Source: Hyphomicrobiales bacterium
GTDB lineage: Bacteria > Pseudomonadota > Alphaproteobacteria > Rhizobiales > Xanthobacteraceae
Direction: 5' to 3'
DNA: 35,393 nt
Assembly: GCA_019237215.1 (NCBI GenBank)
Contig: JAFAHL010000286.1
Location: 1-35,393 of the forward strand
Part shown: one piece after another, positions 1 to 20,141 of the stretch
Numbering within the stretch: the first letter of the stretch is position 1
Layout of the letters: each line of letters begins with the position of its first letter
Translations under genes and position numbers: made by a program
The notes under the pieces: model-generated
Told to the model about the DNA's origin: nothing
Databases searched by the model: none
The model's input: only the letters and a program-made list of their open reading frames with translations

Positions 1-308
1 ACCTCGCCGCTCGCGCGGTCGACCGCCTCCATCCCCGACTTGTTTCCATACCAGGCGACCTGGATCTTGTTGAAGCGCATCGCCTCGATGACGCCGGCGT
101 AATCGGTGGCGTAGAATCCGTTCACCTTGAAGCCGGTGGCTTTCGACATCGCCTCCAGGAACGGCTCCCAGTTCTTCTTCTGGTTCATCGAGGCCTCGGT
201 CGAAATCACCCCGAAATTGATTTCCGTGAGCGTCTGCGCGCCGGCCGGAAGCGCCGATGCGCCGATCGTCAGGGCGGCCGCCGCGCATGTCAGAAAAGCT
301 CGCATCAT
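1..308 (-). CDS. phnD: Phosphonate ABC transporter substrate-binding protein PhnD (N-terminal part; truncated by window start)
   Basis: Reverse complement reads MMRAFLT...LTEINFGVISTEASMNQKKNWEPFLEAMSKATGFKVNGFYATDYAGVIEAMRFNKIQVAWYGNKSGMEAVDRASGE, typical PhnD. AGGAG Shine-Dalgarno upstream of the ATG; located downstream of phnC. Confidence 0.93.
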   Translation of the reverse strand, partial: MMRAFLTCAAAALTIGASALPAGAQTLTEINFGVISTEASMNQKKNWEPFLEAMSKATGFKVNGFYATDYAGVIEAMRFNKIQVAWYGNKSGMEAVDRASGE

Positions 309-362
309 GAGAGTTCTCCTATGGTGATGTCCGGTGGAGCGGGGAATGGCTCCCCAACGCTG

Positions 363-1316
363 TCACGCGCTCAGGCGATCCGCCGATCCGTGCCCGGTTT
401 GACCGGCATGGCCCGCAACGGATCTTTCCTTTGGCGCTGCGCGCAGCTTGGCCGCTTCGCTCTCGCGTCGATCCCGAGGAAGGCCCGGCCGATCGAAGCC
501 CGGTGGAAAAAACTCGCTGCATTCCGCGCCGTAGATGTGGCTCAGCAGCGCCGGCGTGAGTTCGTCGCAGCGGCCGTCATAAACGATCTTGCCCGCTTTC
601 AGCGCGATCGCGCGCGGGCAGTAGGTCAGCGCGTACTCCACCTGATGCAGCGAGACGAGGATGGTGATGCCGTCCTTGCGGTTCATGTCGGCAAGAATGT
701 CCATGACCCGGCGCGCGGAGGCGGGGTCGAGCGAAGCGATCGGCTCATCCGCGATCACGAGCTCGGCGCCCTGCACCAGCGTGCGGGCGATGGCGGCGCG
801 TTGCTGCTGGCCGCCGGAGAGTTCGACGCCGCGCTTGAGGGCGTGCTCGGTCATGCCGACGCGAGCGAGCGCATGCATCGCTGCGCGCTTTTCGTCCAAG
901 GTGAAATTGCTCAGCGTTCCTCGCAGGAACGGCATGCGGCCGAGCAGCCCGAGGCAGACATTCGTGAGGACCGACAGTCGCGGCACCAGATTGAACTGCT
1001 GGAAGATGACGCCGACCCGAACCCGCAATTCCTTGGCGCCGCGCGCGATGCGGCCCTCGCGCTGTATCGGCCGGCCGAATATGGCGATCGTTCCGCCGCG
1101 AGCTTGCGCGGCGGGGGTCTTGTCGACGGCGACCAAGCCCGCCAGCGCTCGAATGAGTGTTGATTTGCCGGAGCCGGATGCTCCGATGAGCGCCACCATC
1201 TCGCGGCAGTCGACCGAGAAGCTCACGTCGTCGAGCACGCGCGTCCCGCGCTCGAACGATTTCGAGACGCGCCGCACATCGATGGCGGCTTCGTTCGGCA
1301 CGCCAAGCTCCTGCAT
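363..1316 (-). CDS. phnC: Phosphonate ABC transporter ATP-binding protein
   Basis: Walker A GASGSGKST, LSGGQQQR signature, VIADEPIASLDP Walker B; next to phnD. Carries a C-terminal extension of several tens of residues. Confidence 0.92.
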   Translation of the reverse strand: MQELGVPNEAAIDVRRVSKSFERGTRVLDDVSFSVDCREMVALIGASGSGKSTLIRALAGLVAVDKTPAAQARGGTIAIFGRPIQREGRIARGAKELRVRVGVIFQQFNLVPRLSVLTNVCLGLLGRMPFLRGTLSNFTLDEKRAAMHALARVGMTEHALKRGVELSGGQQQRAAIARTLVQGAELVIADEPIASLDPASARRVMDILADMNRKDGITILVSLHQVEYALTYCPRAIALKAGKIVYDGRCDELTPALLSHIYGAECSEFFPPGFDRPGLPRDRRESEAAKLRAAPKERSVAGHAGQTGHGSADRLSA

Positions 1317-1449
1317 TTTTGGCCTTTTTCCGGCAATTTGGACCTATCAGCCGCATGTGACAGCGGGATGAAATGACAACGAGAACAAAGGGGTGATCGC
1401 GGGTTTTGCACCGGGCGATGACGAGGCGGTTCGCCGATGAGGTAGGAGC

Positions 1450-2181
1450 CTATTGACCCGAGCGCACCGCGGTCAACGCGGCCTGACCAACGACCCGGAA
1501 CGGCCTCGAGCGGGCGTCCTGGCGCACGAGAGCGAGTTGCGTGATCGGCAGCGAATGCCCGCCGTCGATGTCGTTGAAGCGGGCCTGCAACAACGCCAGG
1601 ATGAAGGCACGGCGCTCGGCGTCGACCGGACCCGTCAAGGTCAAGTGGAAGCGAAAGTCTTCGAACACGTAAGGGTAGCCCCAGCGATCGAGATTCTCGA
1701 TCTGACGTTCGCTCAAACCGGCGCCGAGCCCTTGCTCCCTTTCGAGTCGTTGCTCCCTTTCGTGCGCGGTCAGCGGACGGCGAAATCGGTCGAATGCCAT
1801 CACGCCGTCGGCGGCCAGCCGATCGAGCGCCATGTTTGGCGCGGCGGCGACAACGGCAATGAATTGCGCGAGCGGCCGGATGGCCGGTTCGATCGCCGGC
1901 AGCGTTCGAGGGATGGCGGCAAATCGCTCGAGCTCCGCCGTCAAATCCGCTTCGGTGAACGGCGCCAACAGATGAAACGGCGCCTTCAGCGTCGCGTGAA
2001 ATCCGTATTTGCGCGGCTCGCGCGTGAGCTGCGCCCATTCGGACCCACGAAGCGCGATGCCTTGCGGAGGGCGGAGACTTTCGCCGGTGTAGCAGTCATA
2101 GCCGAGGAAGCCGGCGCCGAAGCGATAGAGACCACAACCGGCCGGCGGCACGAAATAGATCGCGTATCTTGGCTCGTCCAT
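1450..2181 (-). CDS. DUF1045 family phosphonate-metabolism-associated protein (2H phosphoesterase-like)
   Basis: MDEPRYAIYFVPPAGCGLYRFGAGFLGYDCYTGE...YGFHATLKAPFHL...FRFHLTLTGPV: two HxT motifs of 2H phosphoesterases; phn locus context. Confidence 0.88.
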   Translation of the reverse strand: MDEPRYAIYFVPPAGCGLYRFGAGFLGYDCYTGESLRPPQGIALRGSEWAQLTREPRKYGFHATLKAPFHLLAPFTEADLTAELERFAAIPRTLPAIEPAIRPLAQFIAVVAAAPNMALDRLAADGVMAFDRFRRPLTAHEREQRLEREQGLGAGLSERQIENLDRWGYPYVFEDFRFHLTLTGPVDAERRAFILALLQARFNDIDGGHSLPITQLALVRQDARSRPFRVVGQAALTAVRSGQ

Positions 2182-2217
2182 GGACGCTTTACGTCGTTCG
2201 CGGGACCGGCCACGCGT

Positions 2218-3387
2218 TCACCGCGCGCCGACGATGATGTCCGCTCGCGCGAGATGCACGAGGCGGCCGGCCACGATGGCGGCGACGACGCGCGGCGGCT
2301 GTCCGTCGGCCGACGGATCGACGATGATCAAGTCCGCGCGCCGGCCGGGTGCGATCTGTCCGCGGTCGTTGAGCTTGACGGCGTTGGCGGGCGTTTGCGA
2401 CACCAACGCCCAGGCTTGCCCGAACGGCAGGGTGCCGCGCCGCGCGAGCGCAAACGCCGCGAGCAGCGGCGCCGGGTAGTAGTAGTCCGAGGCCAGCACC
2501 GAGCAGAGTCCCCGCCCGATCATCTCGGTCGCGTCGATCCATCCGGTGTGGCTTCCACCGCGAACGACGTTGGGAGCGCCGAGCACGATATCGTCGCCGT
2601 GGGATGCGGCGTCCTCGGCGGTCTCGACCGTGGTCGGGAATTCCGCCAGGCGGCACCCGAGCGCGCGAAACCATCGCCGCTGCTCGGGACTGGCGTCGTC
2701 GTGCGACAGCAACGGAACGCCGCTTGCGTTGGCGGCCGCGGCGAGCCGCTCGATCGAAGCGGGGACTTCATCGGCCCTGCGTTTGGTGCGTTCCACCACC
2801 GCCAGGAAGCCCTCGCGCGTGGCGCCGGAGCGCTCGGCCATTTGCGCGAGGAGCCGTTGCGCGCGGCTCGATGCGTCCACCGTGTGCGACATGTGATCAT
2901 TGAACGCGATCGCGTCGATCCGGCGCCGGGCGAGCCACGTCATGATCTCGGCCTCGGCCTCGAGATTGTAGGTCTCGTGACGAAGGTGGTAGCGGGTGTC
3001 GGCGCCGAGCCGAGGCCGCAGGCGCTCGATGCCGTCGAGAATCGCGCGCGCATTCTCGGCCCCGCGCAGGCCGCCTTCCCACGACCAGGTCACGCCGTGA
3101 AATACGGTCGTGATGCCGTTGGCGACGGCTTGTCGATCGCTTTCAAGCAGCGCAACGTCGATCGGAAATCCCACTCCCGGCCGCGGCATCATCTGTCGCT
3201 CGAAGGCGTCGCCGTGGACGTCGACGATCCCGGGAAGGACCAGAAGGCCGCGGGCGTCGATCGCCCGCTCGGCGCGCGCTTGCGCACCGACGCCGGTGAT
3301 GATCCCGCCCTCGCAATCGAGATCGACGCTGGCCTCCTCGAGAGCGCCCCCGACGAGCGCGCGACCACCTTCGATGCGCATGCGCAT
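2218..3387 (-). CDS. phnM: PhnM-like alpha-D-ribose 1-methylphosphonate 5-triphosphate diphosphatase (paralog 1)
   Basis: Amidohydrolase fold: LVLPGIVDVHGDAFE, SHDDASPEQ, EFPTTVE, LGAPNVVRGGSHTGWIDA, LASDYYYPAPLLAAF. Confidence 0.9.
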   Translation of the reverse strand: MRMRIEGGRALVGGALEEASVDLDCEGGIITGVGAQARAERAIDARGLLVLPGIVDVHGDAFERQMMPRPGVGFPIDVALLESDRQAVANGITTVFHGVTWSWEGGLRGAENARAILDGIERLRPRLGADTRYHLRHETYNLEAEAEIMTWLARRRIDAIAFNDHMSHTVDASSRAQRLLAQMAERSGATREGFLAVVERTKRRADEVPASIERLAAAANASGVPLLSHDDASPEQRRWFRALGCRLAEFPTTVETAEDAASHGDDIVLGAPNVVRGGSHTGWIDATEMIGRGLCSVLASDYYYPAPLLAAFALARRGTLPFGQAWALVSQTPANAVKLNDRGQIAPGRRADLIIVDPSADGQPPRVVAAIVAGRLVHLARADIIVGAR

Positions 3388-3400
3388 GACTGATGCGACC

Positions 3401-4132
3401 TTACGAGCGAGCGGCCTGCTCGCTTCGATCCCTCGACTGACGCGTCTTCAACCGCGACATCTGCGATGGATCCCGCTGCGGTTGATACGCCTTCGAGCCG
3501 CGCTGGGCCGACGGCAGCTCGTATTTTTCAAGGAAGGCCTCGATCGACAGCTGCCGGAAATCAGGCAACGCCGCCCGCAGTCGCTCGTGGTCCCAGTCCC
3601 ACCACGCGAGTTGGTGCAGCCGCTGCGCGACGGCAGCCGAAAAGCGCTGCCGAATGACGCGCGCCGGGTTGCCGGCGACGATCGCATAGGGATCGACGTC
3701 CTTGGTCACCACGGCGCCGGCCGCGACCACCGCGCCCGTGCCGACGGTGCGGCCCGCAAGGATGATCGCGCCGTGCCCAATCCAGACGTCGTGTCCGATG
3801 ACGACCAGCGACGCGCGGCGCCACGCGAAAAACTCCTCTTCATCCCGCTCGCCGGGAAAATAGGCGCTTGCGCGATAGGTGATGTGCGACTGGGTCGCCC
3901 GGCCCATCGGGTGGTTGCCGGGATTGATCCGCGTCATGGCCGCGATCGAGCAGAACTTGCCGATCGTGGTGTAAGCGGCCTCGCTGTCGTTGACGATGTA
4001 GGAGTAATCGCCCAAGGCGACTTCGAGCAGCCTCGTTCGCGCACCGACTTCCGTGTAGGCGCCGAGCCTGCTGTCGCGCACCTCGGCCGTCGGATGAATC
4101 AAGGGCACGGTGGAGAGCGTCTTGATGGACAT
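3401..4132 (-). CDS. Left-handed beta-helix (hexapeptide repeat) acetyltransferase associated with phosphonate metabolism
   Basis: [30 protein letters not shown]...[54 protein letters not shown]; start chosen at internal ATG (ORF extends to 4198). Confidence 0.87.
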
Positions 4133-4199
4133 GGAGCGAACGTTTCTCGCCGGTCTGTGACAGTCCGATGACATGCGGGTGCGGCTGTGAGCGACCAAA

Positions 4200-4958
4200 T
4201 CAAGTCTCGATCACGAGTTCGATGCGGTCGGCGGCGAGGCGGGCCCGCGTCGTCAGGATCGGCCGGCCGTCCGCCGTGATGTCCGTGCTGTCGACCACGA
4301 TCAGCGGCCGGCCCGGCGCAAGGCGCAGCCGCGCGGCATCCGCGGCGTCGGCGATGGCCGCCGAAATCCGCGTGCTCTGGCGGCGAAAGTCGTCGACCCC
4401 GAGTTGCGCCAGCGTGCGCGTGAGCGAACGGGTGTCGCGGTAGATGCGGCCGGCATCGGGTGCGCGATCGGCCGGCAGCCACGTGGTCGCGGCGGAGACG
4501 GGCGCGCGATCGACGCTGCGCAGGATTTCGAGGCGGATGACCGCCGTCCGCGGCGCGACGCCGAGCCGTCGCGCGACGTCGGGCTCGGCTTCCTCGACCG
4601 CGCTGGCGAGGAGCCGGCCTCCCGGCTCGCGTCCGGCGGCGCCGACGATCTCGGAGAAGCGCGTGCGCGAGTGGATCGGGTAGCGCAGCCGTCGGGTTTC
4701 CACGTAGGTGCCGCTGCCGCGCTCGGCCCGCACGAAGCCGCGATCGGCGAGCGTCGCGATCGCGCGCCGGACGGTGTGCCGATTGACGCCGAGCCGTTGC
4801 GCGATCTCGATCTCGCCGGGCAGTCGCGTGTCGACGGGATAGCGGCCGTCCGCGATCGCATGCTCGAGGTGATCGGCCACCCGCCGCCACAGCGCCACGC
4901 CGGCGATCTCCGCGCTCGGCAGCGCGCGACCGGCACGTTTCATCACGCCAGCTTTCAT
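4200..4958 (-). CDS. phnF: Phosphonate metabolism GntR-family (HutC-type) transcriptional regulator PhnF
   Basis: N-terminal wHTH ([41 protein letters not shown]) plus UTRA-type effector domain; divergent from phnG. Confidence 0.93.
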
Positions 4959-5013
4959 GGGCGTCGTCGCATCGGCGTCATCAAAGCTTCACGCACGAAC
5001 GCTTTACTAAAGT

Positions 5014-5031
5014 TGTCTATTAGCATAGACA
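5014..5031. promoter_or_regulatory. Candidate PhnF operator: perfect inverted repeat TGTCTAT-TAGC-ATAGACA
   Basis: 7-bp arms with 4-nt spacer in the phnF/phnG divergent intergenic region. Confidence 0.72.
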
Positions 5032-5038
5032 TGTTACC

Positions 5039-5533
5039 ATGGCAACCGTGCCCTCCGCGAATGCTTCCGAACTCTCGGCCGCGCCCGCGCCGACCACGGC
5101 GGTGCGGCGCGGCGCCATGGCGGTGTTGGCGCAAGCCCGCGCCGAGGAAATCGAGCAAGGACTTCGCGCGGTGATGGATGCCGTCGACTACGTGGAGCTG
5201 CGCTCTCCTGAAACCGGGCTGGTCATGCTGCGCGGGCGAATCGGCGGCGACGGCGCTGCCTTCAATCTCGGCGAAGCGAGCGTGACGCGCGCGGCGGTGC
5301 AAATCGCGTCGGGCGAGGTGGGCATCGCCTACATCCTCGGACGCGATCAGAAAAAGGCGCGCCTCTCCGCCGTCTGCGACGCGCTTTGGCAAAGCAAAAA
5401 ATATCGCGACGCCGTGGAGCGGCGCGTGCTCGCGCCCATACGAAGGCGCCTCGACGCCGAGCGCGAGCACGCGCGCGCCCAAACCGCGGCCACGCGCGTC
5501 GATTTCTTCACCTTGGTGCGCGGTGAGGATTGA
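5039..5533 (+). CDS. phnG: Phosphonate C-P lyase system protein PhnG
   Basis: RRGAMAVLAQARAEEIEQ...GLVMLRGRIGGDGAAFNLGEASVTRAAVQIASGEVGIAYILGRDQKKARLSAVCDALWQ; first gene of phnGHIJ. Confidence 0.93.
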   Translation: MATVPSANASELSAAPAPTTAVRRGAMAVLAQARAEEIEQGLRAVMDAVDYVELRSPETGLVMLRGRIGGDGAAFNLGEASVTRAAVQIASGEVGIAYILGRDQKKARLSAVCDALWQSKKYRDAVERRVLAPIRRRLDAEREHARAQTAATRVDFFTLVRGED

Positions 5534-6126
5534 GCGTCATGCCGGCAGCCGCTTTTCCCGCGCCGGTGCTCGCGAGCCAAGCCGTCTTCCGCGCGCTCAT
5601 GGACGCGGTTGCGCGGCCGGGGACGGTCAAGCCGCTGCCTCCCGCTGCTGCCGCCCCACTGCCGCTGAGCGCCACGGCCGCCGCCGTCGCACTGACCATG
5701 CTCGACTATGAAACGCCGGTCTGGCTCGACGCCCCGCTCGCGCGATCGCCGCAGGTCGCCGATTGGATCCGCTTGCACGCCGGCGCACGCGTAACGTCCG
5801 ATCCCCGGCAGGCCGCGTTCGCGTTCATCGCCGATCCCGTCCATGCGCCGGCGTTCGACGGCTTTTCTCTCGGAACCCCGGAATACCCGGACCGCTCGGC
5901 CACGCTCGTGCTCCAGGTGGAGGGCTTCGGGACCGGGCAGCGCTTGTTGCTCGCCGGGCCCGGCATCGCGGATGTGCAAAGCTTTTCGGCGCAGCCGCTA
6001 CCGCCGGATTTCCCAAACCGAATCGCCGCCAATCGGGCGCTTTTCCCGCGCGGCATCGACGTGATCCTCGTTTCCCCCGACGCCGTCGCGGCGCTGCCGC
6101 GTTCGGTCGCAGCGACGCGAGGCTGA
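5530..6126 (+). CDS. phnH: Phosphonate C-P lyase subunit PhnH
   Basis: PAPVLASQAVFRALMDAVARPGTVKPL...LNTERM-like PhnH sequence with GPGIADVQSFSAQPLPPDF and LFPRGIDVILVSPDAVAALPRS. Start TTG 5530 or ATG 5539. Confidence 0.92.
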   Translation: MSVMPAAAFPAPVLASQAVFRALMDAVARPGTVKPLPPAAAAPLPLSATAAAVALTMLDYETPVWLDAPLARSPQVADWIRLHAGARVTSDPRQAAFAFIADPVHAPAFDGFSLGTPEYPDRSATLVLQVEGFGTGQRLLLAGPGIADVQSFSAQPLPPDFPNRIAANRALFPRGIDVILVSPDAVAALPRSVAATRG

Positions 6127-6128
6127 CG

Positions 6129-7226
6129 ATGTATGTCGCGGTCAAGGGCGGCGAGCGCGCGATCGAGAACGCCCATGCGTTGCTCGCCGACGCTAGACGC
6201 GGCGAGCGCGGCGTTGCGGAGATTTCGCTCGAGCAGATCTCGCAGCAGCTGGCGCTCGCGGTCGACCGCGTGATGGCCGAGGGCTCGCTCTACGATCGGG
6301 AGCTGGCGGCGCTCGCCATCAAGCAGGCGCGCGGAGACCTGATCGAAGCGATCTTTCTCCTGCGCGCGTTTCGCACCACGTGCCCGCGCTTCGGCGCCTC
6401 GGCGCCGTTCGATACCGCGGGCATGGACGTGCGGCGGCGCATCTCCGCCATCTTCAAGGATCTGCCCGGCGGACAGGTGCTTGGGCCCACGTTCGACTAT
6501 ACCCACCGCCTGCTCGATCAGGGCCTCGCCGATGAAGCTGCCGTCGCGGAGCCTCCCACGGCGGCCCATGACGGAACGCCGATGCGGCCGGTGACGGACC
6601 TCCTCGCCGCCGACGGCCTCATCGAGCGGTCCACGGCGAGCCCAGCCGATGCAACGGTCGGCGATCTGACGCGCGAGCCGCTGTCCTTTCCCGCCGAACG
6701 AGACGTACGCCTGCAGAACCTTGCGCGCGCAGACGAGGGCTTTTTGCTTGCGCTCGGCTACTCGACCCAGCGCGGTTTCGGCCGTACCCATCCGTTCGCC
6801 GGCGAGATCCGCTTCGGCGAGGTCGAGGTCGAATTCTTCGCCGAGGAGGTCGGCTTCGCGGTTCCGCTCGGGCGGGTCGCGGTGACCGAGTGTCAGATGG
6901 TCAACCAGTTCAAAGGCTCCGGCGCAGAGGCGCCGCGCTTCACGCGCGGCTACGGTCTCGCGTTCGGACAAAGCGAGCGCAAGGCCATGTCCATGGCGCT
7001 CGTCGACCGGGCCTTGCGTGCGCGCGAACTCGGCGAGGAGGTCGCCGCGCCGGCGCAAGACCAGGAGTTCGTGCTCTCGCACTCCGACAACGTCCAGGCG
7101 ACCGGATTCGTCGAGCATTTGAAATTGCCGCACTACGTGGATTTCCAGGCCGAGCTTGGGCTGGTGCGGCGGATGCGCGAGGAGTTCGCGCTCCGCGACG
7201 GCGCGCTGCGGGATGCGGCCGAATGA
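6129..7226 (+). CDS. phnI: C-P lyase core subunit PhnI
   Basis: MYVAVKGGERAIENAHALLADARRGERG...SHSDNVQATGFVEHLKLPHYVDFQAELGLVRRMRE; start at internal ATG 6129. Confidence 0.95.
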   Translation: MYVAVKGGERAIENAHALLADARRGERGVAEISLEQISQQLALAVDRVMAEGSLYDRELAALAIKQARGDLIEAIFLLRAFRTTCPRFGASAPFDTAGMDVRRRISAIFKDLPGGQVLGPTFDYTHRLLDQGLADEAAVAEPPTAAHDGTPMRPVTDLLAADGLIERSTASPADATVGDLTREPLSFPAERDVRLQNLARADEGFLLALGYSTQRGFGRTHPFAGEIRFGEVEVEFFAEEVGFAVPLGRVAVTECQMVNQFKGSGAEAPRFTRGYGLAFGQSERKAMSMALVDRALRARELGEEVAAPAQDQEFVLSHSDNVQATGFVEHLKLPHYVDFQAELGLVRRMREEFALRDGALRDAAE

Positions 7227-8116
7227 GCGCGCCGGTCTACAACTTCGCCTATCTCGACGAGCAGACCAAGCGGATGATCCGCCGCGCCATCCTCAAGGCG
7301 ATCGCGATCCCCGGCTACCAAGTCCCGTTTGCCAGCCGCGAGATGCCGATGCCGTACGGCTGGGGCACCGGCGGGGTTCAGGTCACGGCCGCGATCCTGG
7401 GCCCCGACGACGTGCTCAAGGTGATCGACCAAGGCTCCGACGACACTACCAACGCGGTGTCGATCCGCAAATTTTTCGCCAAGACGGCGGGCGTCCGCAC
7501 CACCACGCGCACCAGCGAGGCGACGGTCATCCAGACGCGGCATCGGATTCCCGAAACGCCGCTGGGCGAGCATCAAGTGCTGGTCTATCAGGTTCCGATT
7601 CCGGAGCCGCTGCGGTTTCTCGAGCCGCGCGAGACCGAAACGCGCCAGATGCACGCGTTGGCCGATTACGGCGTGATGCACGTCAAATTGTACGAGGATA
7701 TCGCCCGCCACGGCCACATCGCGACGACCTACGCCTATCCGGTCAAGGTGAACGGCAGGTACGTGAGCGATCCCTCGCCGACGCCGAAATTCGACAATCC
7801 GAAAATGAACGACTCGCCGGCGCTGCAGCTGTTCGGCGCGGGCCGCGAAAAGCGCATTTACGCCATCCCGCCCCATACGGCGGTCGTGTCGCTCGATTTC
7901 GAGGATCACCCGTTCGAGCGCTATCGCCACGACGGCAGCTGCGCGCTCTGCGGCTCGGCCGAAAGCTTCCTCGACGAGGTGGTGATCGACGATCGCGGCG
8001 GACGGATGTTCGTGTGCTCCGACACCGATTATTGCGAAGGTCGGCGTGCGGCGGCGCCCGAGGGCGGGCAAACAGCGCCCGCTGCGCCTGCCACCACGGA
8101 GCCGCCGCATGCTTGA
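7223..8116 (+). CDS. phnJ: Alpha-D-ribose 1-methylphosphonate 5-phosphate C-P lyase PhnJ
   Basis: MSAPVYNFAYLDEQTKRMIRRAILKAIAIPGYQVPFASREMPMPYGWGTGG...; Cys cluster CALCG...CSDTDYC; ATGA overlap with phnI. Confidence 0.96.
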   Translation: MSAPVYNFAYLDEQTKRMIRRAILKAIAIPGYQVPFASREMPMPYGWGTGGVQVTAAILGPDDVLKVIDQGSDDTTNAVSIRKFFAKTAGVRTTTRTSEATVIQTRHRIPETPLGEHQVLVYQVPIPEPLRFLEPRETETRQMHALADYGVMHVKLYEDIARHGHIATTYAYPVKVNGRYVSDPSPTPKFDNPKMNDSPALQLFGAGREKRIYAIPPHTAVVSLDFEDHPFERYRHDGSCALCGSAESFLDEVVIDDRGGRMFVCSDTDYCEGRRAAAPEGGQTAPAAPATTEPPHA

Positions 8117-8579
8117 TCAGGCAAAACTCCTGGTGCGGCCGGCGATGGAGTCGGATCTGGAGAAAATCCTCGGCCTCTACGCGCAAGCCGAATTCGACGC
8201 CGGCTGTGTGCTGCCGCTCGCGGCCGCAAAGCGTTTGTTCGAACGCTTCGCCGACTACCCCGACTACACGCTCTACGTCGCCGAGCACGGCGGCGACATC
8301 GTCGGCACCTTTGCCTTGCTGGTGATGCACAACCTCGGCCACCTCGGCGCGCCGTCGGCGATCGTCGAGGACGTCGCCGTGGCGCCGGCGCTGCAAGGCA
8401 ACGGCATCGGCAAGGAGATGATGCGATTCGCACTCGGCCTTTGTCGCGACAAGGGCTGCTACAAGCTCATGCTGTCCTCGAACGCCAGGCGCGACCGCGC
8501 CCACGCTTTCTATGAATCGCTTGGATTCGAACGCCACGGCGTCAGCTTCCGCATCGATATTTCCGCAGGCGCGCCATGA
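8109..8579 (+). CDS. GNAT-family N-acetyltransferase inserted between phnJ and phnK
   Basis: MLDQAKLLVRPAMESDLEKILGLYAQAEF...AIVEDVAVAPALQGNGIGKEMMRFALGLCRDKGCYKLMLSSNARRDRAHAFYESLGFERHG: GNAT acetyl-CoA motif and C-terminal FYESLGF. Overlaps phnJ stop; its own stop overlaps phnK ATG. Confidence 0.92.
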   Translation: MLDQAKLLVRPAMESDLEKILGLYAQAEFDAGCVLPLAAAKRLFERFADYPDYTLYVAEHGGDIVGTFALLVMHNLGHLGAPSAIVEDVAVAPALQGNGIGKEMMRFALGLCRDKGCYKLMLSSNARRDRAHAFYESLGFERHGVSFRIDISAGAP

Positions 8580-9364
8580 TCGAGCGCGATGGAGATCAAC
8601 CACTTCTTCGCGCCGAAGGCCTGAGCAAATGGTACGGCAAGCAGCTCGGTTGCCGCGACGTTTCGTTTGCGCTCTATCCCGGCGAGGTGATCGCCGTGGT
8701 GGGAGAATCCGGCTCCGGCAAAACGACGTTGTTGCAGCTTCTCTCCGCGCAGCTCGCGCCGTCGCGCGGCCGCGTGCTTTATTGCATGCGCGATGGAGCG
8801 ACGCGCGATCTTGCATCGCTGAGCGAGGCGGAGCGCCGTTTCCTCTTTCGCACCGATTGGGGCTACGTGCATCAGGATCCCGCCTTGGGCCTGCGCATGG
8901 CCGTGTCCGCGGGCGCCAATGTCGGCGAGCGACTGATGGCGATCGGCTGGCGTCACTACGGCCGCATCCGCGAGACCGCCGGCGATTGGCTCGCGCGCGT
9001 CGAGATCGATGGCGCGCGGATCGACGATGCGCCCTACACCTATTCGGGCGGGATGCGTCAGCGGCTTCAGATCGCGCGCAATCTCGTCACCCGGCCGCGC
9101 CTCGTGTTCATGGACGAGCCGACCGGCGGCCTCGACGTTTCGGTTCAGGCGCGCCTGCTCGATCTGCTGCGCGGACTCGTGGCCGAGCTCGCGCTTGCCG
9201 CGGTGATCGTGACGCACGACCTTGCCGTCGCACGGCTGTTATCTCATCGGGTCATAGTGATGAAGGATGGCGAGATCGTCGAAACCGGCCTCACCGACCA
9301 GGTGCTGGACGATCCGCACCAACCATACACGCAGTTGCTGGTGTCGTCGGTCTTGCCGCCGTGA
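8576..9364 (+). CDS. phnK: Phosphonate C-P lyase system ATP-binding protein PhnK
   Basis: LRAEGLSKWYGKQLGCRDVSFALYPGEVIAVVGESGSGKTTLL...YSGGMRQRLQIARNLVTRPRLVFMDEPTGGLDVSVQ. Confidence 0.94.
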   Translation: MIERDGDQPLLRAEGLSKWYGKQLGCRDVSFALYPGEVIAVVGESGSGKTTLLQLLSAQLAPSRGRVLYCMRDGATRDLASLSEAERRFLFRTDWGYVHQDPALGLRMAVSAGANVGERLMAIGWRHYGRIRETAGDWLARVEIDGARIDDAPYTYSGGMRQRLQIARNLVTRPRLVFMDEPTGGLDVSVQARLLDLLRGLVAELALAAVIVTHDLAVARLLSHRVIVMKDGEIVETGLTDQVLDDPHQPYTQLLVSSVLPP

Positions 9365-9371
9365 GGATGTC

Positions 9372-10067
9372 ATGTCGACCGTGCTCGAACTGACGGCCGT
9401 AGCGAAGACGTTCACCATGCATTTGCAGGGAGGCATTCGCCTGCCTGTGGTGACCGGCGTTGCATTCGCCGTGCAGGCGGGAGAATGCGCCGTGCTCGCC
9501 GGCCGGTCGGGCGCGGGCAAGAGCTCGATCCTGAAGATGATCTTCGGCACTTACCGTTGCGACGCCGGCAGCATCCTGGTGAATGCCGATGGCCGCACCG
9601 TCGACGTCGCCCAGGCGGAACCGCGCCAGATTCTTATGCTGCGCGCGCGGGCGCTCGGTTACGTCAGCCAGTTTCTACGCGCCGTTCCACGCGTGCCGAC
9701 GGTCGATGTCGTCGCCGAGCCGCTGGTGATCGCGGGAGTGGAGCGCGACGACGCCCGGCGGCGCGCGGCCGATCTCCTGCGCCGGCTCAACATACCGCAG
9801 CGGCTGTGGCCGCTGCCGCCGGCGACGTTCTCGGGCGGCGAGCAGCAGCGCGTCAACATCGCCCGCGGCTTCGTATCCGATCTGCCGCTGCTCCTGCTCG
9901 ACGAACCGACCGCCTCGCTCGACGCCGGCAACCGCGCCGTCGTGGTCGACCTGGTGGCCGAAAAAAAGCGGCGCGGAACGGCGGTGGTCGCGATCGTGCA
10001 CGACGACGTGCGCGCGGCAATCGCCGACACCGTCATTGACGTCAACCGTTTCACGGCGGCGGCCTGA
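9372..10067 (+). CDS. phnL: Phosphonate C-P lyase system protein PhnL (ABC ATPase)
   Basis: MSTVLELTAVAKTFTMHLQGGIRLPVVTGVAFAVQAGECAVLAGRSGAGKSSILKMIFGTYRCDAGSILV...FSGGEQQRVNIARGFVSDLPLLLLDEPTASLD. Confidence 0.94.
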   Translation: MSTVLELTAVAKTFTMHLQGGIRLPVVTGVAFAVQAGECAVLAGRSGAGKSSILKMIFGTYRCDAGSILVNADGRTVDVAQAEPRQILMLRARALGYVSQFLRAVPRVPTVDVVAEPLVIAGVERDDARRRAADLLRRLNIPQRLWPLPPATFSGGEQQRVNIARGFVSDLPLLLLDEPTASLDAGNRAVVVDLVAEKKRRGTAVVAIVHDDVRAAIADTVIDVNRFTAAA

Positions 10068-10075
10068 GGACATCC

Positions 10076-11227
10076 ATGGCACACCGCGATCTGCTTTTGG
10101 CCAACGCGCGCGTGGTCCTTGCGGAGCGCGTGATCGATGCCGGGTGGGTCGCGGCTGTGAACGGCGCCGTCGTCGAAATCGGCGAAGGCCGCGCCCCGGA
10201 TCATGCCGAGGATCTCGCCGGCGATCTGCTGCTGCCGGGTCTGGTCGAATTGCATACCGATCATCTCGAGGCGCATTACGTCCCCCGGCCCAAGGTGCAT
10301 TGGGATCCGGTCGCGGCCGTGGTCTCCTACGACGGGCAGCTCGCGACCTGCGGCATCACCACAGCGCTCGATTCGCTGCGCGTTTGGCGCGAGGAGGGAG
10401 CGGAAGACGTCGACGGGCAGGCGGAGATCCTCGCCGATGCCATAGCGATCGCGCGCGACGCGGACCTTCTGCGCCTCGAGCACTTCCTCCATCTTCGCTG
10501 CGAGGTGCCGATGCCGAGCGTCGTTGAGGAAGCGACAGCGTTGGTCGCGCGCGCGGACGTCCGGCTGGTGTCGCTGATGGACCACACGCCCGGGCAACGG
10601 CAGTTCCGCGACGAAGGCAAGCTGCGAGATTACTACCGCGGCAAGAACGGCGGCATGACCGACGCCGAGCTCGACGTGCTGTTTGCCAAGCGCATCGCCT
10701 ACCAGGCCGCGCATGCCGAGGGAAACCACCGCGACCTCGTCGGTCTCGCCCACGCCCGCAACGTCCCTTTGGCGAGCCACGACGACACCACTGCCGATCA
10801 CGTCGCGGAAGCGATCCGCGACGGTGTGGCGCTCGCCGAGTTTCCGACCACGGTCGAAGCGGCGCAGGCGCTGCACGCAGCCGGCATTCGGGTCTTGATG
10901 GGAGCGCCCAATCTCGTACGCGGCGGCTCGCATGCCGGCAACATCGCGACGCAGGCGCTGGCGCGCGCCGGCGCGCTCGACGTGCTGTCGTCGGACTACG
11001 TTCCGGCGAGCCTGCTGATGGCGGCGTTGCGTCTGCCGCAGGTCGTTGCCGACATCGAGCTGGCGGCGGCGATCCGCATGGTCAGCAAGACTCCCGCCGA
11101 GGCGGTCGGGTTGCGCGACCGCGGCGAAATTGCGGTCGGAAAGCGCGCCGATCTCATCCGCGTACGGGTCGTGCACGATGTGCCGGCGGTGAGAAGCGTG
11201 TGGCGCGGCGGTCGGCGCGTGGCATGA
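10076..11227 (+). CDS. phnM: Alpha-D-ribose 1-methylphosphonate 5-triphosphate diphosphatase PhnM (paralog 2, within C-P lyase operon)
   Basis: DLLLPGLVELHTDHLEAHYVPRPKVHWDPVAAVVSYDGQLATCGITTALDSL...SLMDHTPGQRQFRD...SHDDTTADHV...GAPNLVRGGSHAGNIATQALARAGALDVLSSDYVPASLL. Confidence 0.96.
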   Translation: MAHRDLLLANARVVLAERVIDAGWVAAVNGAVVEIGEGRAPDHAEDLAGDLLLPGLVELHTDHLEAHYVPRPKVHWDPVAAVVSYDGQLATCGITTALDSLRVWREEGAEDVDGQAEILADAIAIARDADLLRLEHFLHLRCEVPMPSVVEEATALVARADVRLVSLMDHTPGQRQFRDEGKLRDYYRGKNGGMTDAELDVLFAKRIAYQAAHAEGNHRDLVGLAHARNVPLASHDDTTADHVAEAIRDGVALAEFPTTVEAAQALHAAGIRVLMGAPNLVRGGSHAGNIATQALARAGALDVLSSDYVPASLLMAALRLPQVVADIELAAAIRMVSKTPAEAVGLRDRGEIAVGKRADLIRVRVVHDVPAVRSVWRGGRRVA

Positions 11228-11835
11228 GCTGGATCGCGCGAGCTTTCCGGTTGCTGACGGCCCGTTCGAGATTGGTCGGGCCGGGACGTCTGGTGCTGGT
11301 CGTCGGACCGAGCGGCGCCGGCAAGGACACGTTGATCGCGCGCGCGCGCGCCGCTTGCCACGGCGACGCGACGGTCGTTTTTCCCACCCGCGTGATCACC
11401 CGGCCGCCGTCGATTTTCGAAGACAATGAATTCATGCCGCCATCCGCCTTCGAGCAGGCGGCGGCCAACGGCGCCTTCGCGGTCTGGTGGAGCGCGCACG
11501 GCCACATGTACGGAATCCCCCTCGCCGTCGATTTCGATATCGAAGCCGGCCGCACCGTGGTGTGCAACGTATCGCGCACCGTCGTCGCCGCCGTGCGCGA
11601 GCGTTACGCCAATGTCGTGACCGTGCTCGTCACCGCGCCGCGGGAGGTGCTCGGCAGCCGCCTTGCCTCGCGCGAGCGGGCGGGCGATGCGGGCATCGCC
11701 GATCGAATGAACCGCGCCGCGCTCGCGGACGGCAAGTTGCGGCCTGACGTGATCATCAACAATGTCGGTGCGCCCGAGACCGCGGCACGCAAGCTCGTGG
11801 ACACTCTCTATGCCACCGGCGTGTTCGCGGGTTGA
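11224..11835 (+). CDS. phnN: Ribose 1,5-bisphosphokinase PhnN
   Basis: LVLVVGPSGAGKDTLIARARAAC...VFPTRVITRPPS...FEQAAANGAFAVWWSAHGHMYGIPLAVDFDIEAGRTVVCNVSRTVV; ATGA overlap with phnM. Confidence 0.95.
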   Translation: MSWIARAFRLLTARSRLVGPGRLVLVVGPSGAGKDTLIARARAACHGDATVVFPTRVITRPPSIFEDNEFMPPSAFEQAAANGAFAVWWSAHGHMYGIPLAVDFDIEAGRTVVCNVSRTVVAAVRERYANVVTVLVTAPREVLGSRLASRERAGDAGIADRMNRAALADGKLRPDVIINNVGAPETAARKLVDTLYATGVFAG

Positions 11836-14758: not shown

Positions 14759-14769
14759 CAAAACCGACG

Positions 14770-14809
14770 CCCAACGTCGGCGGCGCTGACCGCCGATCGT
14801 GTCGTTGGG
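14770..14809. terminator. Candidate bidirectional terminator hairpin between convergent phoU and DUF445 gene
   Basis: CCCAACG-TCGGCGG-CGCTGA-CCGCCGA-tcgtgt-CGTTGGG: two nested perfect 7-bp stems with a one-sided bulge; no clear U-tract. Confidence 0.5.
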
Positions 14810-16087
14810 TTACGCGGGCGCGATCCACTTGGATGCAACGAAGATCAACAGCCCGACGAGCCCGCCCACGAGGGTGCCGTTGATGCGGATGTATTGCAGG
14901 TCCTTGCCGACTTGCAGCTCCAGCCGGTTGACCAGCGTGGCGGCGTCCCAATTCTGCACCACGTGGGTCACGTAGGCGCCGATCTCCGCGCGGCGCGGCA
15001 ACAGCACGCGCAGCATGAGCAGCCTTATCCAGCGGTTGAGCCGTCTCTGGCGATCCGCATCCTGCTCCAACCAGCGGCCGAAATTGTGCAGGGCGACCTC
15101 GATCGTCCTTGCGGCGGTTTCGGCGCGGGCCTGCGGGTCGGACTCAAGGCCGCGCTCGATCTCGTCCCACAGGCTTCTGGCCTGCTCCAGGAGTAGCGGG
15201 TTCGCTAGCAGCTGCGCCTTCATGCGCTCGCCCACGGCGTGCATGTCGGGATCGGTTGCGAGGTCCGCGATCAGCTTTTCCACCGCCTGGCTCAACTCGA
15301 CCCGCCACGGATGATCCGGATCGCGCAGTTCCTCCATCGTGCTGAGGAGGCCGGCCATGACGCGCTCTGCGATCATGTTGTCCACCCATTTGGGTATCCA
15401 GCGCGACGAGTGCTCCGACACGATCCGGTGGATCGTGGCCTTGTTGCGCCTGAGCGAGCGTTCGCCCAGGTCGAGCGCGCGCTCGAGCGCGGCCTGCGCC
15501 GCGCCACCCGCCCACAGCACCGCCAAGAGCTTTGAGGCCAGCGGCGCGGCCGGAATCGATTCGATGCCTTGGCGGGCGACATTGCCGAGAAATTCGCCGA
15601 GCTCCGGCCGAGCCAGCGATTTCAGGATGCGGGGAAGCAGCGTCCCGACATACTGCGCCAGCTGCTTTGCATTGTCGGGATCGTTGACCCAATGCGTGAT
15701 CCAGCCGACCACGTCGACCTGCAGGAGCTGTTCGTGCGCCACTCGTGGGCTCAGAAAGTTGTTGGTGATGAAGCGGCCCAGCGCGGCTCCGATCCGATCC
15801 TTGTTGTTCGGCACGATGCCGGTGTGCGGGATGGGGATGCCGAATGGATGCCGGAACAGCGCGACGACCGCAAACCAGTCGGCGCACGCGCCGACCATGC
15901 CGGCTTCCGCGAAGGCGCGTGCGTAAGGCAGCCAGGGCCAGTCCACCGTGGCGACGCTGGTCGCCACGAAAATACAGGTCATCATTCCGAGCAGGGCGAC
16001 GGCGATCGCCCGCATGCGCTTGAGATCGGCGAGCTTGGCTTCCGCGCTCTTGATTTCGGGCTCGGCGGTTCGGCAAACCTCTGCCAC
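14810..16087 (-). CDS. DUF445 family membrane protein
   Basis: AFAEAGMVGACADWFAVVALFRHPFGIPIPHTGIVPNNKDRIGAALGRFITNNFLSPRV...YIRINGTLVGGLVGLLIFVASKWIAPA. Confidence 0.9.
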   Translation of the reverse strand: MAEVCRTAEPEIKSAEAKLADLKRMRAIAVALLGMMTCIFVATSVATVDWPWLPYARAFAEAGMVGACADWFAVVALFRHPFGIPIPHTGIVPNNKDRIGAALGRFITNNFLSPRVAHEQLLQVDVVGWITHWVNDPDNAKQLAQYVGTLLPRILKSLARPELGEFLGNVARQGIESIPAAPLASKLLAVLWAGGAAQAALERALDLGERSLRRNKATIHRIVSEHSSRWIPKWVDNMIAERVMAGLLSTMEELRDPDHPWRVELSQAVEKLIADLATDPDMHAVGERMKAQLLANPLLLEQARSLWDEIERGLESDPQARAETAARTIEVALHNFGRWLEQDADRQRRLNRWIRLLMLRVLLPRRAEIGAYVTHVVQNWDAATLVNRLELQVGKDLQYIRINGTLVGGLVGLLIFVASKWIAPA

Positions 16088-16114
16088 CGTGGTTGGCCTC
16101 CCTCGCCGTTAGGC

Positions 16115-16939
16115 TCAGGTCCCGGTTTGCGAATATCGCGACGACAGATGCTCGTAGTGGTGGCGTATGAGCGCTTGCCCATAGCGACGCTCGAGCCGCC
16201 GGATGGTGAAATGCGCCTGCGCGACACGCTGAAAATGATTGATAAAAATGAGGTTGATCGTGGCTCCCCCGATGGCGCCGAGGAGAGGTATCGCACTGGC
16301 CGCGAACCGTTCGGAGGCGATCACGCCGAAGCGCGACGCGACTTCCGTCACCAGGCTGTTCACCACCGGCGTCGACGCGCTGGCCGTGCTGCGTTCGATG
16401 AGATAGACCGACGTTTGGCTGGCAAGCTTGCTCAGCAGCGCCCGTGACGCGTAGTAGCCGATGTTCATTTGTTTTCTCGCGCCGCCGGTGCCGAGTGCGA
16501 AGACCTCGATGCAGGCCAGACGCGCTTCCAATTGCGATAGATCCTCGCCGTGATGACGGGCGAGGTCGGCAATCGATCGCAACATCAGCGTCGTCGTCAG
16601 CGGCAGCTCGATCGGAAGCGCCGCAAAGCCGAAAAATCCGCTGATGCCGCCGTTGATGCCGGCCAGCAGTGACAAAAGGTTGGTTGCAGGCGGCTGCTTC
16701 GACTGCGGCCCGATCGAGCTGATCGCCAGATTGAGGCATTTGAGAATTGCGGTTTCAATGGCGCGATTGAGACCGGCGCTCGCCGGTCTCGGCATCATGC
16801 GCAGCAGGCGATCGACCGGTTGGCCGGCATAGTCCGCAAGCCGCGCGGCAAAGTTCTGGCGCTCGAGCAGAAAGCAGGCGCGTTGCAGGGCTTTTTGATG
16901 GTGGGGCGAAAGCGATCCCCCGGTCGCGACCGCCATCAT
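16115..16939 (-). CDS. EcsC family protein
   Basis: LARHHGEDLSQLEARLACIEVFALG...SRFGVIASERFAASAIPLLGAIGGATINLIFINHFQRVAQAHFTIRRLERRYG. ATG overlaps the upstream ATPase stop (ATGA at 16939-16936). The longer ORF to 17146 lies inside the ATPase gene. Confidence 0.85.
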   Translation of the reverse strand: MMAVATGGSLSPHHQKALQRACFLLERQNFAARLADYAGQPVDRLLRMMPRPASAGLNRAIETAILKCLNLAISSIGPQSKQPPATNLLSLLAGINGGISGFFGFAALPIELPLTTTLMLRSIADLARHHGEDLSQLEARLACIEVFALGTGGARKQMNIGYYASRALLSKLASQTSVYLIERSTASASTPVVNSLVTEVASRFGVIASERFAASAIPLLGAIGGATINLIFINHFQRVAQAHFTIRRLERRYGQALIRHHYEHLSSRYSQTGT

Positions 16940-19074
16940 CGGTAGCGCAAGATCGGCCGCAGTCCGTTGAGCGTGGCCACGATCGCCGAGCCGTTGCTGA
17001 TCAATGCCGTCACCGTCGGGGTGATGAGTCCGCCCGGCAGCGCGAGCGCCAACGCCAACGTGTTCAGTCCCGCCACGATCGCATAGTTCTGCTTGATCAG
17101 ACGCACCGCGCCCTGCGAGATCTCGACCGCCTTCACGAGTTTCCACAGCGAGTCCTCCATCAGCACGACGTGCGCCGATTCGTGCGCGACTTCGGCCCCG
17201 TGCTTCATGGCGATGCCGACGTCCGCGTAGCTCAGCGCCGGCGAATCGTTGATGCCGTCACCGACCATCGCAACAACATTGCCGGCGCGCTGGAGTTCCG
17301 CAATGGCGTCGGCCTTGTCCGCCGGCAGCATATCGGAAAAGTGGCGGGTGAGGCCGAGCCGGCGCCCAACCGCCCGCGCCACGACCGCGTTGTCGCCCGT
17401 CAACATTACGCTGTTCTTCACTCCCATGTTGCGCAGGCGGTGCAGCACGGAGCGGCTCTCCGCGCGGATCTCGTCCGAATAAGGCACCATTCCGGCCAGC
17501 GCGCCATCGACCGCGATATAAACGCACGAATAGCCCTGCTCATCGAGGGCGGAACGATCGTTGGCGGTCTTGCGCACGCAAATGTCGCTTTGCCGCATGA
17601 AACGTTCGTTGCCGACGTGCAAGTAATAGCCGTTGACTTGGCCCTCCACGCCGAGCCCGACCCGATACTGCGTTTCGTCGCACGATGGGATGTTGACGGC
17701 GAGCTCCTGGGCCTTGACCCGCAATGCCTCGGCCACGGGATGTTGCAGCTTCGTTTCCGCCGCCGCCGCCAGCCCGAGCAGATGACCCGGCGTGATATGG
17801 TCCTGATAGGTGAGCACGTCGAGAACGGCGGGCGTGCCGTGGGTCAAGGTGCCGGTCTTGTCGAAGACGATGGTGTCGACCTCGGCGAGGCGCTCCAGGT
17901 GCCGGCCGCTCTTGATGATGATGCCCGTGCGCGCCGCGTGCGTCATCGATGCCAGCACGGCGGTCGGCGCCGCCACGCGGATGCCGGTGCCGTAGTCGAC
18001 GATCACCAGCGAGAGGAACCGGTCGAAATCCGCGGACACCACCGCCGCGCCGGTTGCTAGCACCAGCTCCGGCACGACCAGCCGGTCGGCCAGCCGCTCG
18101 GCATGGTTCTGCATGCGGGTGTCGCCGATAGGCGCGGATTCGACGAGGCGCACGATCTGCCCGGCCGTGGTGTCGGCGCCAACCCGGGTCGCGCGGATCG
18201 TCAGATGGCCATCGCTGATGACCGTCGCCGCGAACGCCGCGTCACCCTTGCCGCGCGTCACCGGCAGGCCTTCGCCGGTGATGGTCTTCTGGTCGATCAA
18301 AGCTTGCCCGGCGATGATCTCGCCATCGATCGGGATCACGCCGCCGTGGTGGACGACGACTTCGTCGCCGACCGCGAGCTCGCTGCTCGGGATCGAGACC
18401 AGGGTGCCGTCGCGGATGACCCATGCGGTCTTGACCTGGAATTCGAGCAACTCGCGGATCGCGCGCCGGGAGCCGGCCGCGGTCAGGTCGCGGATCCAAT
18501 CCCCGAGCTTGATCAGCCAGGTCACGATCGCACCGGCCATTGGATTGCCCTGCGCCAGCGACGCAGCGACCGCGAGCGTATCGAGGAAATCCACGTTGAG
18601 GCGGCGCTCGCGCTGCCACACCCGCCACGCGCGCAGCGCAATCGGATAGGCGTTCCAAAGCATCAATGGCAGATTGATCGCCCGGACGACGGGATTGGCG
18701 CTAAACGCCAACGCAACCGACAGGGTAGGCAGGGCGAGCGGCACGCGCCGCAGCAGCGATTGGCTCTCGTCGAGGCGGCCGCTCGCGCGCTCGGTCGGAG
18801 CATCGTCCCCGACATCCGTGGGAGTCACCAGGCTGCGGAGCTCGGCGATGCTCATGAGCCGCAAGCGGCCGATGACGGCGCGCAGCAACGCCTCGTGCGT
18901 CACGTCGTACTCGACGATCAGGCAGGCGCAATCATAGTTGATGCGCGCGCTTCTGATGCCGTCACGCGCTCGCAGCCACTTCAGGGACGCTTCCGCCAGG
19001 GACCGCCGTCGGCCGAGGGACGGAACGTGCAGGCGCACGCGGCCCGGAATGAAATGGCGGATGGTCAGTTCCAT
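16936..19074 (-). CDS. P1B-type (heavy-metal-like) P-type ATPase with N-terminal HMA2-like domain and no CPx motif
   Basis: DKTGTLTHG phosphorylation site, AVAEALRVK HP-loop region, MLTGDNAVVARAVGRRLG, VAMVGDGINDSPAL; membrane motif reads LVIVDYGTGIRVAAPTAVLASM instead of CPC/CPH/SPC. Confidence 0.93.
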   Translation of the reverse strand: MELTIRHFIPGRVRLHVPSLGRRRSLAEASLKWLRARDGIRSARINYDCACLIVEYDVTHEALLRAVIGRLRLMSIAELRSLVTPTDVGDDAPTERASGRLDESQSLLRRVPLALPTLSVALAFSANPVVRAINLPLMLWNAYPIALRAWRVWQRERRLNVDFLDTLAVAASLAQGNPMAGAIVTWLIKLGDWIRDLTAAGSRRAIRELLEFQVKTAWVIRDGTLVSIPSSELAVGDEVVVHHGGVIPIDGEIIAGQALIDQKTITGEGLPVTRGKGDAAFAATVISDGHLTIRATRVGADTTAGQIVRLVESAPIGDTRMQNHAERLADRLVVPELVLATGAAVVSADFDRFLSLVIVDYGTGIRVAAPTAVLASMTHAARTGIIIKSGRHLERLAEVDTIVFDKTGTLTHGTPAVLDVLTYQDHITPGHLLGLAAAAETKLQHPVAEALRVKAQELAVNIPSCDETQYRVGLGVEGQVNGYYLHVGNERFMRQSDICVRKTANDRSALDEQGYSCVYIAVDGALAGMVPYSDEIRAESRSVLHRLRNMGVKNSVMLTGDNAVVARAVGRRLGLTRHFSDMLPADKADAIAELQRAGNVVAMVGDGINDSPALSYADVGIAMKHGAEVAHESAHVVLMEDSLWKLVKAVEISQGAVRLIKQNYAIVAGLNTLALALALPGGLITPTVTALISNGSAIVATLNGLRPILRYR

Positions 19075-19109
19075 GGTGTGAAGGTCCTAGCTTCGATGTC
19101 CCGGGCCAA

Positions 19110-19682
19110 TCAGCTCTTGACGATTACCGGGGCGACAGCCGGACCTCCGTTAGCACGCGGCGCATGCATTTCGATGACATGGTTGAGGGCAAACAGCGTG
19201 AGCGTGACCCATACCGGCGTCGCCGCCGCGGTGCCGACTTCGAACACGGTGAATCCGATGACCCCTAGCGCCAGGACGATCTTCAGGTCGACATAGTTGT
19301 CGGTGGCGACCCTGACCTCGCGGTCGCATTGCTTGAAGAAATCCACCACCGCGCGGGCGCTTTGTGAATGGCGGGCCAGGAACTCGGCCTCTTGCTCGAT
19401 CCTGCGCGCAAATTGGTCGATGTCCGTGAGCGGCGGGGCACTGGCGCCCGCCTGCTCAACATGGTCCTGGAAGCGGCCATGAAACTCGTCATGCCGATGG
19501 ACGTCGTAGTGCATCACCACGCTGCCGGTCGCCGGATTGCAGTTGATGCGCTCGATGCCCGGTATCGCCGCGAACGTCTCGGCGATCTGTTGCAGCAATT
19601 CGGGATTTCCTTTGGCGGCCGGGATTTTCATGCGAACCCGGCCCGGCACCTGATGGGCGACGTTGAATTTGAGCTTGGTCAT
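19110..19682 (-). CDS. HMA2-like domain membrane protein (190 aa)
   Basis: MTKLKFNVAHQVPGRVRMKIPAAKGNPELLQQIAETFAAIPGIERINCNPATGSVVMHYD parallels the ATPase N-terminus (HFIPGRVRLHVPSLG...INYDCACLIVEYD). Hydrophobic C-terminal segments LKIVLALGVIGFTVFEVG and WVTLTLFALNHVIEM. Confidence 0.8.
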   Translation of the reverse strand: MTKLKFNVAHQVPGRVRMKIPAAKGNPELLQQIAETFAAIPGIERINCNPATGSVVMHYDVHRHDEFHGRFQDHVEQAGASAPPLTDIDQFARRIEQEAEFLARHSQSARAVVDFFKQCDREVRVATDNYVDLKIVLALGVIGFTVFEVGTAAATPVWVTLTLFALNHVIEMHAPRANGGPAVAPVIVKS

Positions 19683-19721
19683 GGGCTTGTCAGCCAGCCG
19701 ATGACCGTCGCGCCAAAAGCA

Positions 19722-20141
19722 TCACGCCGCAGGCATGGACGAACGCGGCGAGGATTTGGATGTGGCAGCCTTCTTGTCGCCTTCGGCGTCGACCTCCGCG
19801 ACAATGTCATGCACGTGCTCCTGGGCCTCAGCGACCATTTCGCGGGTTTTCTGCCCCATCTTGTAGGCGCCCCGGACCGTCGACTTGACCAGGGGACTCA
19901 CGGCCCCGCCGAGCCTCGGCAGGTATTTCGGGACCAGCATGGTGGCGATGCCGAGCACAAGGCCGGGGAGGAGGGCCGCCTCGAAAATGATCACACCTGC
20001 GCCAACCACCGCGACCGTTGCCGCGGTCGCGATCAGCTCGTCCTGGCTCTCGGCGAGCTCATCGAAGCCGTCGGCGGGCTCATTCGCATCGCTGTCAGCC
20101 ATTTTGCCGCCGTTCGAGGCGTCGGACTTGTGCCGTTCCAT
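19722..20141 (-). CDS. DUF5132-like small membrane protein (139 aa)
   Basis: AATVAVVGAGVIIFEAALLPGLVLGIATMLVPKYLPRLGGAVSPLVKSTVRGAYKMGQKTREMVAEAQEHVHDIVAEVDAE; the annotated start could instead be internal. Confidence 0.72.
   Translation of the reverse strand: MERHKSDASNGGKMADSDANEPADGFDELAESQDELIATAATVAVVGAGVIIFEAALLPGLVLGIATMLVPKYLPRLGGAVSPLVKSTVRGAYKMGQKTREMVAEAQEHVHDIVAEVDAEGDKKAATSKSSPRSSMPAA

Follow-up and report, generated by a model that had tools for sequence, protein, structure and literature searches.

Genes and organization of the operon

The window, the whole 35,393-nucleotide stretch analysed here, is a contig (G000:C89) of a Hyphomicrobiales assembly that consists of 794 contigs and is 91% complete. 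The contig is assigned to its genus because its DNA (phnN, phoU, and the small-gene region) matches a same-genus genome at 73–85%. Five adjacent genes lie on the minus strand. The first encodes a DUF5132 protein of 139 aa (19722–20141; PF17195, 34.1 bits at a cut-off of 25), the second an HMA2-domain protein of 190 aa (19110–19682; PF19991 (HMA_2), 60.6 bits at a cut-off of 30), and the third a P1B-type ATPase of 712 aa (16936–19074) with E1-E2 ATPase, Hydrolase, and N-terminal HMA_2 (31.6 bits) domains. These are followed by genes for an EcsC-family protein of 274 aa (16115–16939; PF12787, 88.8 bits) and a DUF445 membrane protein of 425 aa (14810–16087; PF04286, 341.9 bits). The intergenic gaps are short, 39 bp between DUF5132 and HMA2, 35 bp between HMA2 and the ATPase, and 27 bp between EcsC and DUF445, and the EcsC start (16939) and the ATPase stop share 4 nt (ATGA). 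A terminator-like hairpin followed by a T-rich tail lies past DUF445 on the same strand (14763–14781), and it rests on position only because the scan found 3 such hairpins against 4.0 expected by chance.

The five-gene minus-strand operon proposed in the initial annotation was recovered in its genes and coordinates, and Pfam profiles returned the families that had been named. The HMA2-like GRVR motif that it had read in two of the proteins is also present, as HQVPGRVRMKIP in the 190-aa protein and as HFIPGRVRLHVP in the ATPase, and neither protein has a CxxC.

Partner proteins of the ATPase

The DUF5132 protein has a glycine-rich transmembrane (TM) stretch (PGLVLG) and an amphipathic tail that is first basic and then E/A-rich. 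Compared with a FezA-like set it gives a profile-profile match of 94.6% over 64 columns, in helices that are short and compositionally biased. The controls gave 0.23% for the reversed profile, at most 0.15% for 30 column-shuffled profiles, and 0.3% for another glycine-zipper set. As judged from these profiles, DUF5132 is likely homologous to FezA-like proteins and is a candidate FezA/PacL-like scaffold. No mention of DUF5132 was found in the literature searched.

A TM GXXG motif and E/A repeats enable PacL proteins to cluster P1B pumps (PMC13043812), and the repeats bind the N-termini of these pumps (PMC9374683, PMC13043812). In the mycobacterial PacL1-CtpC effluxosomes, as in the window, a small single-TM protein with a glycine motif and an E/A-rich tail is encoded beside a P1B ATPase. 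This PacL-like architecture, the effluxosome precedent (PMC9374683, PMC13043812), and the sporadic distribution of the operon would fit an efflux platform that, like PacL/CtpC, sits in the plasma membrane, exports a toxic divalent metal (Fe, Mn, Zn, or Co), and forms no compartment inside the cell. We nevertheless regard such a platform as unlikely, since the window proteins lack CxxC, CPx, and any other thiol ligand that could bind soft metals and the recurrent neighbours of the ATPase clade are Feo and ferritin genes. Homology of DUF5132 to PacL was rejected as weak, with a profile probability of 9.9% against the one PacL-like sequence compared (from L033). Pfam assigns DUF5132 only, and DUF1490 and DUF6110, the domains of the PacL1-CtpC system, were not found in the protein. 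Further differences from PacL1-CtpC are that the window protein has no metal-binding end of the DLHDHDH type and that the window pump has neither CPC nor HN.

The HMA2 protein consists of a ferredoxin-like GRVR domain without CxxC, long helices, and a C-terminal hydrophobic hairpin of two helices. Its HMA2 domain is common to the HMA2 proteins of fez-type operons (profile 98.6%), and its sequence profile matches classical HMA domains starting past their CxxC. The hairpin has one conserved His, against two in the FezC-like proteins of L034 and L029. In the AF2 model the HMA-like domain reaches a pLDDT of about 90 and confidence is low elsewhere. A Foldseek search returned best E-values above 0.02, with HMA-domain chaperones among the matches.

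EcsC adjoins the pump only in alphaproteobacterial copies, and we propose that it acts as a membrane-associated partner specific to this lineage, with its translation coupled to that of the ATPase. Its AF2 model, made from two sequences, has a mean pLDDT of only 34.7, and a sequence search found no solved structural relative. DUF445 is linked to the operon only in the window genome, and in G074 and in G408 the single DUF445 gene lies elsewhere. It is a local addition to the operon.

The ion site and the clade of the ATPase

The ATPase keeps all the catalytic motifs (TGE, DKTGT, HP, and GDGxND). The CPC of other P1B pumps aligns with its YGT, and the M4 ion-site motif D360-Y-G-T-G-I-R366 (17977–17997, minus strand, located by alignment) stands in place of CPx; M4 reads DYGTGIRVAAP, which bears out the description of the pump as CPx-less. 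An HN motif in the last TM helix is the hallmark of P1B-6 pumps (PMC9374683), and the window ATPase has S693-N694 there instead.

We define a TGIR clade by the M4 motif D[FLYM]x[TS]G[ILV]R, an N-terminal HMA2 domain, and monophyly; the window ATPase has the motif and the domain and falls in the clade. In the trees its members are the window ATPase and its alphaproteobacterial kin, one Desulfobacteraceae protein, and many cyanobacterial proteins; it also takes in one odd Thioploca row that lacks the motif. The FezB-type clade (M4 DY[SA]C[AP]x[KR]) was set by operon content and the cited papers rather than by the R. palustris or D. magneticus sequences. In two trees the TGIR and FezB-type clades are sisters, with SH-aLRT values of 99 and 98 for the joint branch, 99 and 96 for TGIR, and 92 and 92 for FezB-type. 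Forcing the FezB-type rows and the alphaproteobacterial TGIR rows together is rejected by an AU test run with the M4 motif columns removed (p-AU 4.8e-6). The TGIR clade is a branch separate from the ferrosome machinery and apparently undescribed so far.

An M4 Asp and a basic residue six positions later are common to the TGIR and FezB-type clades and absent in CPx pumps, while the M4 Cys and the invariant last-helix His are FezB-specific. In the M4 alignment, D360 and R366 are present in 33/33 main TGIR rows and T363 in 32/33. The FezB rows have Cys in 12/12 and K/R in 12/12, and the CPx rows also have Cys. The His position of the HN motif is occupied by His in 12/12 FezB rows and by N (19), H (9), or S (5) in the TGIR rows. 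The window pump resembles P1B-6 pumps in its N-terminal HMA-like domain and shares the M4 Asp, the basic residue, and the last-TM Asn with FezB-type pumps, but the M4 Cys and last-TM His are replaced. What is most unusual about the pump, as read from the alignment, is a putative ion site that is free of thiols and carries a fixed Arg. Compared with FezB, the pump has lost the Cys and the HN His, which could reflect a changed substrate and to that extent speaks against iron.

A second, longer TGIR subgroup (about 850 aa, D[LMF]GTGIRMAAP) occurs in the window's own genome (G000:C289, L005) and in L009, L010, L013, and L076, with neighbours that differ from those of the operon; in loci related to L005 a small TM protein precedes the longer ATPase. 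In small-genome cyanobacteria (L148–L150, L153, L155, L156, L159, L160) the TGIR ATPase is solitary, with no DUF5132 or feo neighbours, and its motif is mostly DLGTGIRVSVP.

Comparison with fez operons

The fez-type operons examined come from Rhodomicrobium udaipurense, Rhodobacter capsulatus, Cereibacter, Vibrio, Photobacterium, Hahella, Sulfurospirillum, and others. They encode a small TM protein with an acidic or E/A-rich tail, often a second glycine-zipper protein, an ATPase with DY[SA]C[AP]xK, HMA2 proteins, and in several cases a DUF4405-like small protein. This content fits what is expected for FezC, a cytochrome that binds heme b (PMC10979944), and for the six fez genes of R. palustris (PMC12016538).

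The window operon resembles the fez clusters (FezA, FezB, FezC; RPA2333-2338 in R. palustris) in its small, probably FezA-like TM/amphipathic protein, in the pairing of an HMA2 protein with an HMA2-bearing P1B ATPase, in its compactness, and in the iron-gene linkage of its clade. With fez operons of the three-gene type it further shares an HMA2 protein that ends in a two-helix membrane hairpin. These common components, and the sister relationship of the two ATPase clades, are what could be expected of a genuine fez operon that builds ferrosomes and whose members have strongly diverged. A fez operon of this kind is improbable on the remaining evidence. The window ATPase lies outside the FezB-type clade in the trees and in the AU test, it has DYGTGIR where fez-type pumps have DYSCAxK and SN where they have HN, and the heme-binding His pair of FezC is missing. 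EcsC and DUF445 are added, and no fez-type locus examined has either. Many fez-type operons also encode a second glycine-zipper protein and a Pro/Met/Trp/His-rich protein, neither of which was found in the window. Because trees, AU test, motifs, and gene content are all against it, membership in fez, the first of two readings offered by the initial annotation, was rejected.

A fez-type operon was also seen on pORIO2, a predicted conjugative plasmid of Cereibacter azotoformans (L014, 4071–9644), so that ferrosome genes may be mobile. Its flanking genes encode FeoA, TonB receptors, FecR, and a sigma factor.

Conserved unit and distribution

The first four genes form a unit that recurs outside the window genome. 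In another genus of the same family (G074, L016) a 73%-identical ATPase lies within DUF5132-HMA2-ATPase-EcsC, and all four genes recur in unchanged order in a Rhodospirillales MAG (L031), with an ATPase of 62% identity. A contig end (L017; ATPase 60%) shows DUF5132-HMA2-ATPase. The overlap of ATPase and EcsC is kept in 3/3 complete alphaproteobacterial copies (window, L016, L031). Among 120 genomes sampled from the family, an ATPase match of at least 60% was found only in G074 and G117 besides the window, and the other seven members of the genus gave none at that level. A search of 289 genomes of the class found no copy (best match 38%). The alphaproteobacterial unit is rare. In L031 the gene that comes after the four-gene unit encodes a large protein (5888–8395, 835 aa) that reads as Cas9-N-terminus-like.

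The DUF5132-HMA2-ATPase core recurs in cyanobacteria. Clusters such as those of Tolypothrix (L041) and a Gloeothece plasmid (L012) have the same ATPase clade and the same three-gene core, but differ from the window in that they often lie beside feoAB or ferritin genes and in that EcsC was not found near them.

Iron genes near TGIR ATPases

A TGIR ATPase is carried by 29 of the 145 cyanobacterial genomes sampled. In 7 of 26 cyanobacterial TGIR loci, read over 12–14 kb, feoB lies within about 3 kb of the ATPase (L161, L163, L167, L168, L169, L171, L172); most of the seven also have feoA, some have FeoC, and three have a ferritin gene on the same strand. The order ATPase-DUF5132-HMA2-feoB is found in L168, and in Tolypothrix the same genes stand in line. 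All five members of one strongly supported cyanobacterial subclade are among the seven, and the linkage is concentrated in this subclade and its near relatives. Since a genome of several Mb has one or two feoB genes, such closeness is far beyond chance; a rough estimate, which is not a computed test, gives well under one locus per hundred. These neighbours support an iron role for the TGIR clade, and because the branch so often adjoins cyanobacterial genes for iron uptake and storage, the system is probably another iron-handling membrane system. The second reading of the initial annotation, a divergent relative of fez, gains from this linkage, from the sister position of TGIR to FezB-type, and from the probable FezA-like nature of DUF5132.

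No iron gene was found near any alphaproteobacterial copy, and the window's own genome (91% complete) gave no strong FeoB, its FeoB_N matches being weak and at GTPase level. For these reasons we infer iron for the window pump rather than read it from its neighbours. The TGIR pump might instead move a non-transition-metal ion (e.g. Ca2+, K+, or H+) or be regulatory, an unlikely reading in favour of which are the loss of all thiol ligands, the fixed R366, and the Desulfobacteraceae locus, where the ATPase adjoins an Na/Ca exchanger and a CLC channel. The repeated linkage to feoAB and ferritin in cyanobacteria and the FezB-type sister group speak against it. An HMA2 protein and several small TM proteins are also encoded in the Desulfobacteraceae locus (L032, 2873–10518, from a MAG), in addition to the TGIR ATPase, the exchanger, and the CLC chloride channel.

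Relatives of a ferritin-like DUF2202 protein occur in a fez-type locus (L030, 3895–4641) and in a TGIR locus (L161, 3783–4271), and this protein is a possible further partner common to both kinds of loci.

Phosphate surroundings

The operon is flanked by genes for PhoU, a Pho4/Pit-family transporter, and a C-P lyase-like (phn) set. Reading of the ORFs by eye places the phosphonate (C-P lyase, phn-like) set upstream of phoU, at 1–11835 of the window. The phoU and pit flanks had been described correctly, but the Pho-box-like sites described with them are at chance level (4 found, 1.6 expected, and 13 of 100 shuffles reach 4). A locus for metal-phosphate storage had been suggested from these surroundings, and the position of the operon between phoU and pit in the window genome is in its favour. 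It is nonetheless a highly improbable explanation: phoU, pit, and phn do not lie near other copies of the operon, and in the same-genus genome G806 phnN, the small gene, and phoU lie close together with the operon absent. Phosphate regulation was rejected on the same grounds, the chance-level Pho-box scan and the lack of conservation of the phosphate neighbours. The phosphate neighbours are local to the window genome, and the operon looks like an insertion into a phn-phoU-pit neighbourhood.

Proposed model of a metal-pump platform

We give about even chances to the reading that the products of the operon form a scaffolded metal-pump platform, which is a relative of ferrosomes but not one of them, with Fe(II) as the most likely substrate; P1B-6 pumps are listed as Fe(II) pumps (PMC7558416). 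The platform may work as follows. DUF5132 would act as a FezA/PacL-like organizer whose glycine-rich TM helix self-associates and whose E/A-rich tail, on the PacL precedent, binds the N-terminal HMA2 domain of the ATPase and so probably gathers the pump into a membrane patch. The two-helix HMA2 membrane protein would serve as a FezC-shaped accessory without the paired histidines, and EcsC as a membrane-associated partner of the ATPase. The ATPase would couple ATP hydrolysis to the movement of a cation, most likely Fe(II), out of the cytosol and into a lumen or the periplasm, through the thiol-free M4 site with its fixed D360/R366 pair. The patch might also bud off as a compartment if the analogy with ferrosomes extends that far. 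A bolder claim, which we hold to be doubtful, is that TGIR, DUF5132, and HMA2 make up a second class of iron organelle, or of iron-pump microdomain, in bacteria. It would be a sister of the ferrosome with a thiol-free Asp/Thr/Arg site and, in alphaproteobacteria, an EcsC subunit, and its pump would be the one that about a fifth of the sampled cyanobacteria carry.

Few membrane-bounded organelles of bacteria have a defined gene set, and the iron-storing ferrosomes are one of them. A sister clade of pumps with matching partners and, in cyanobacteria, links to feo and ferritin would provide a handle on how such compartments evolved. It would also let one ask whether cyanobacteria have ferrosome-like compartments and how a P1B pump moves metal without any thiol ligand.
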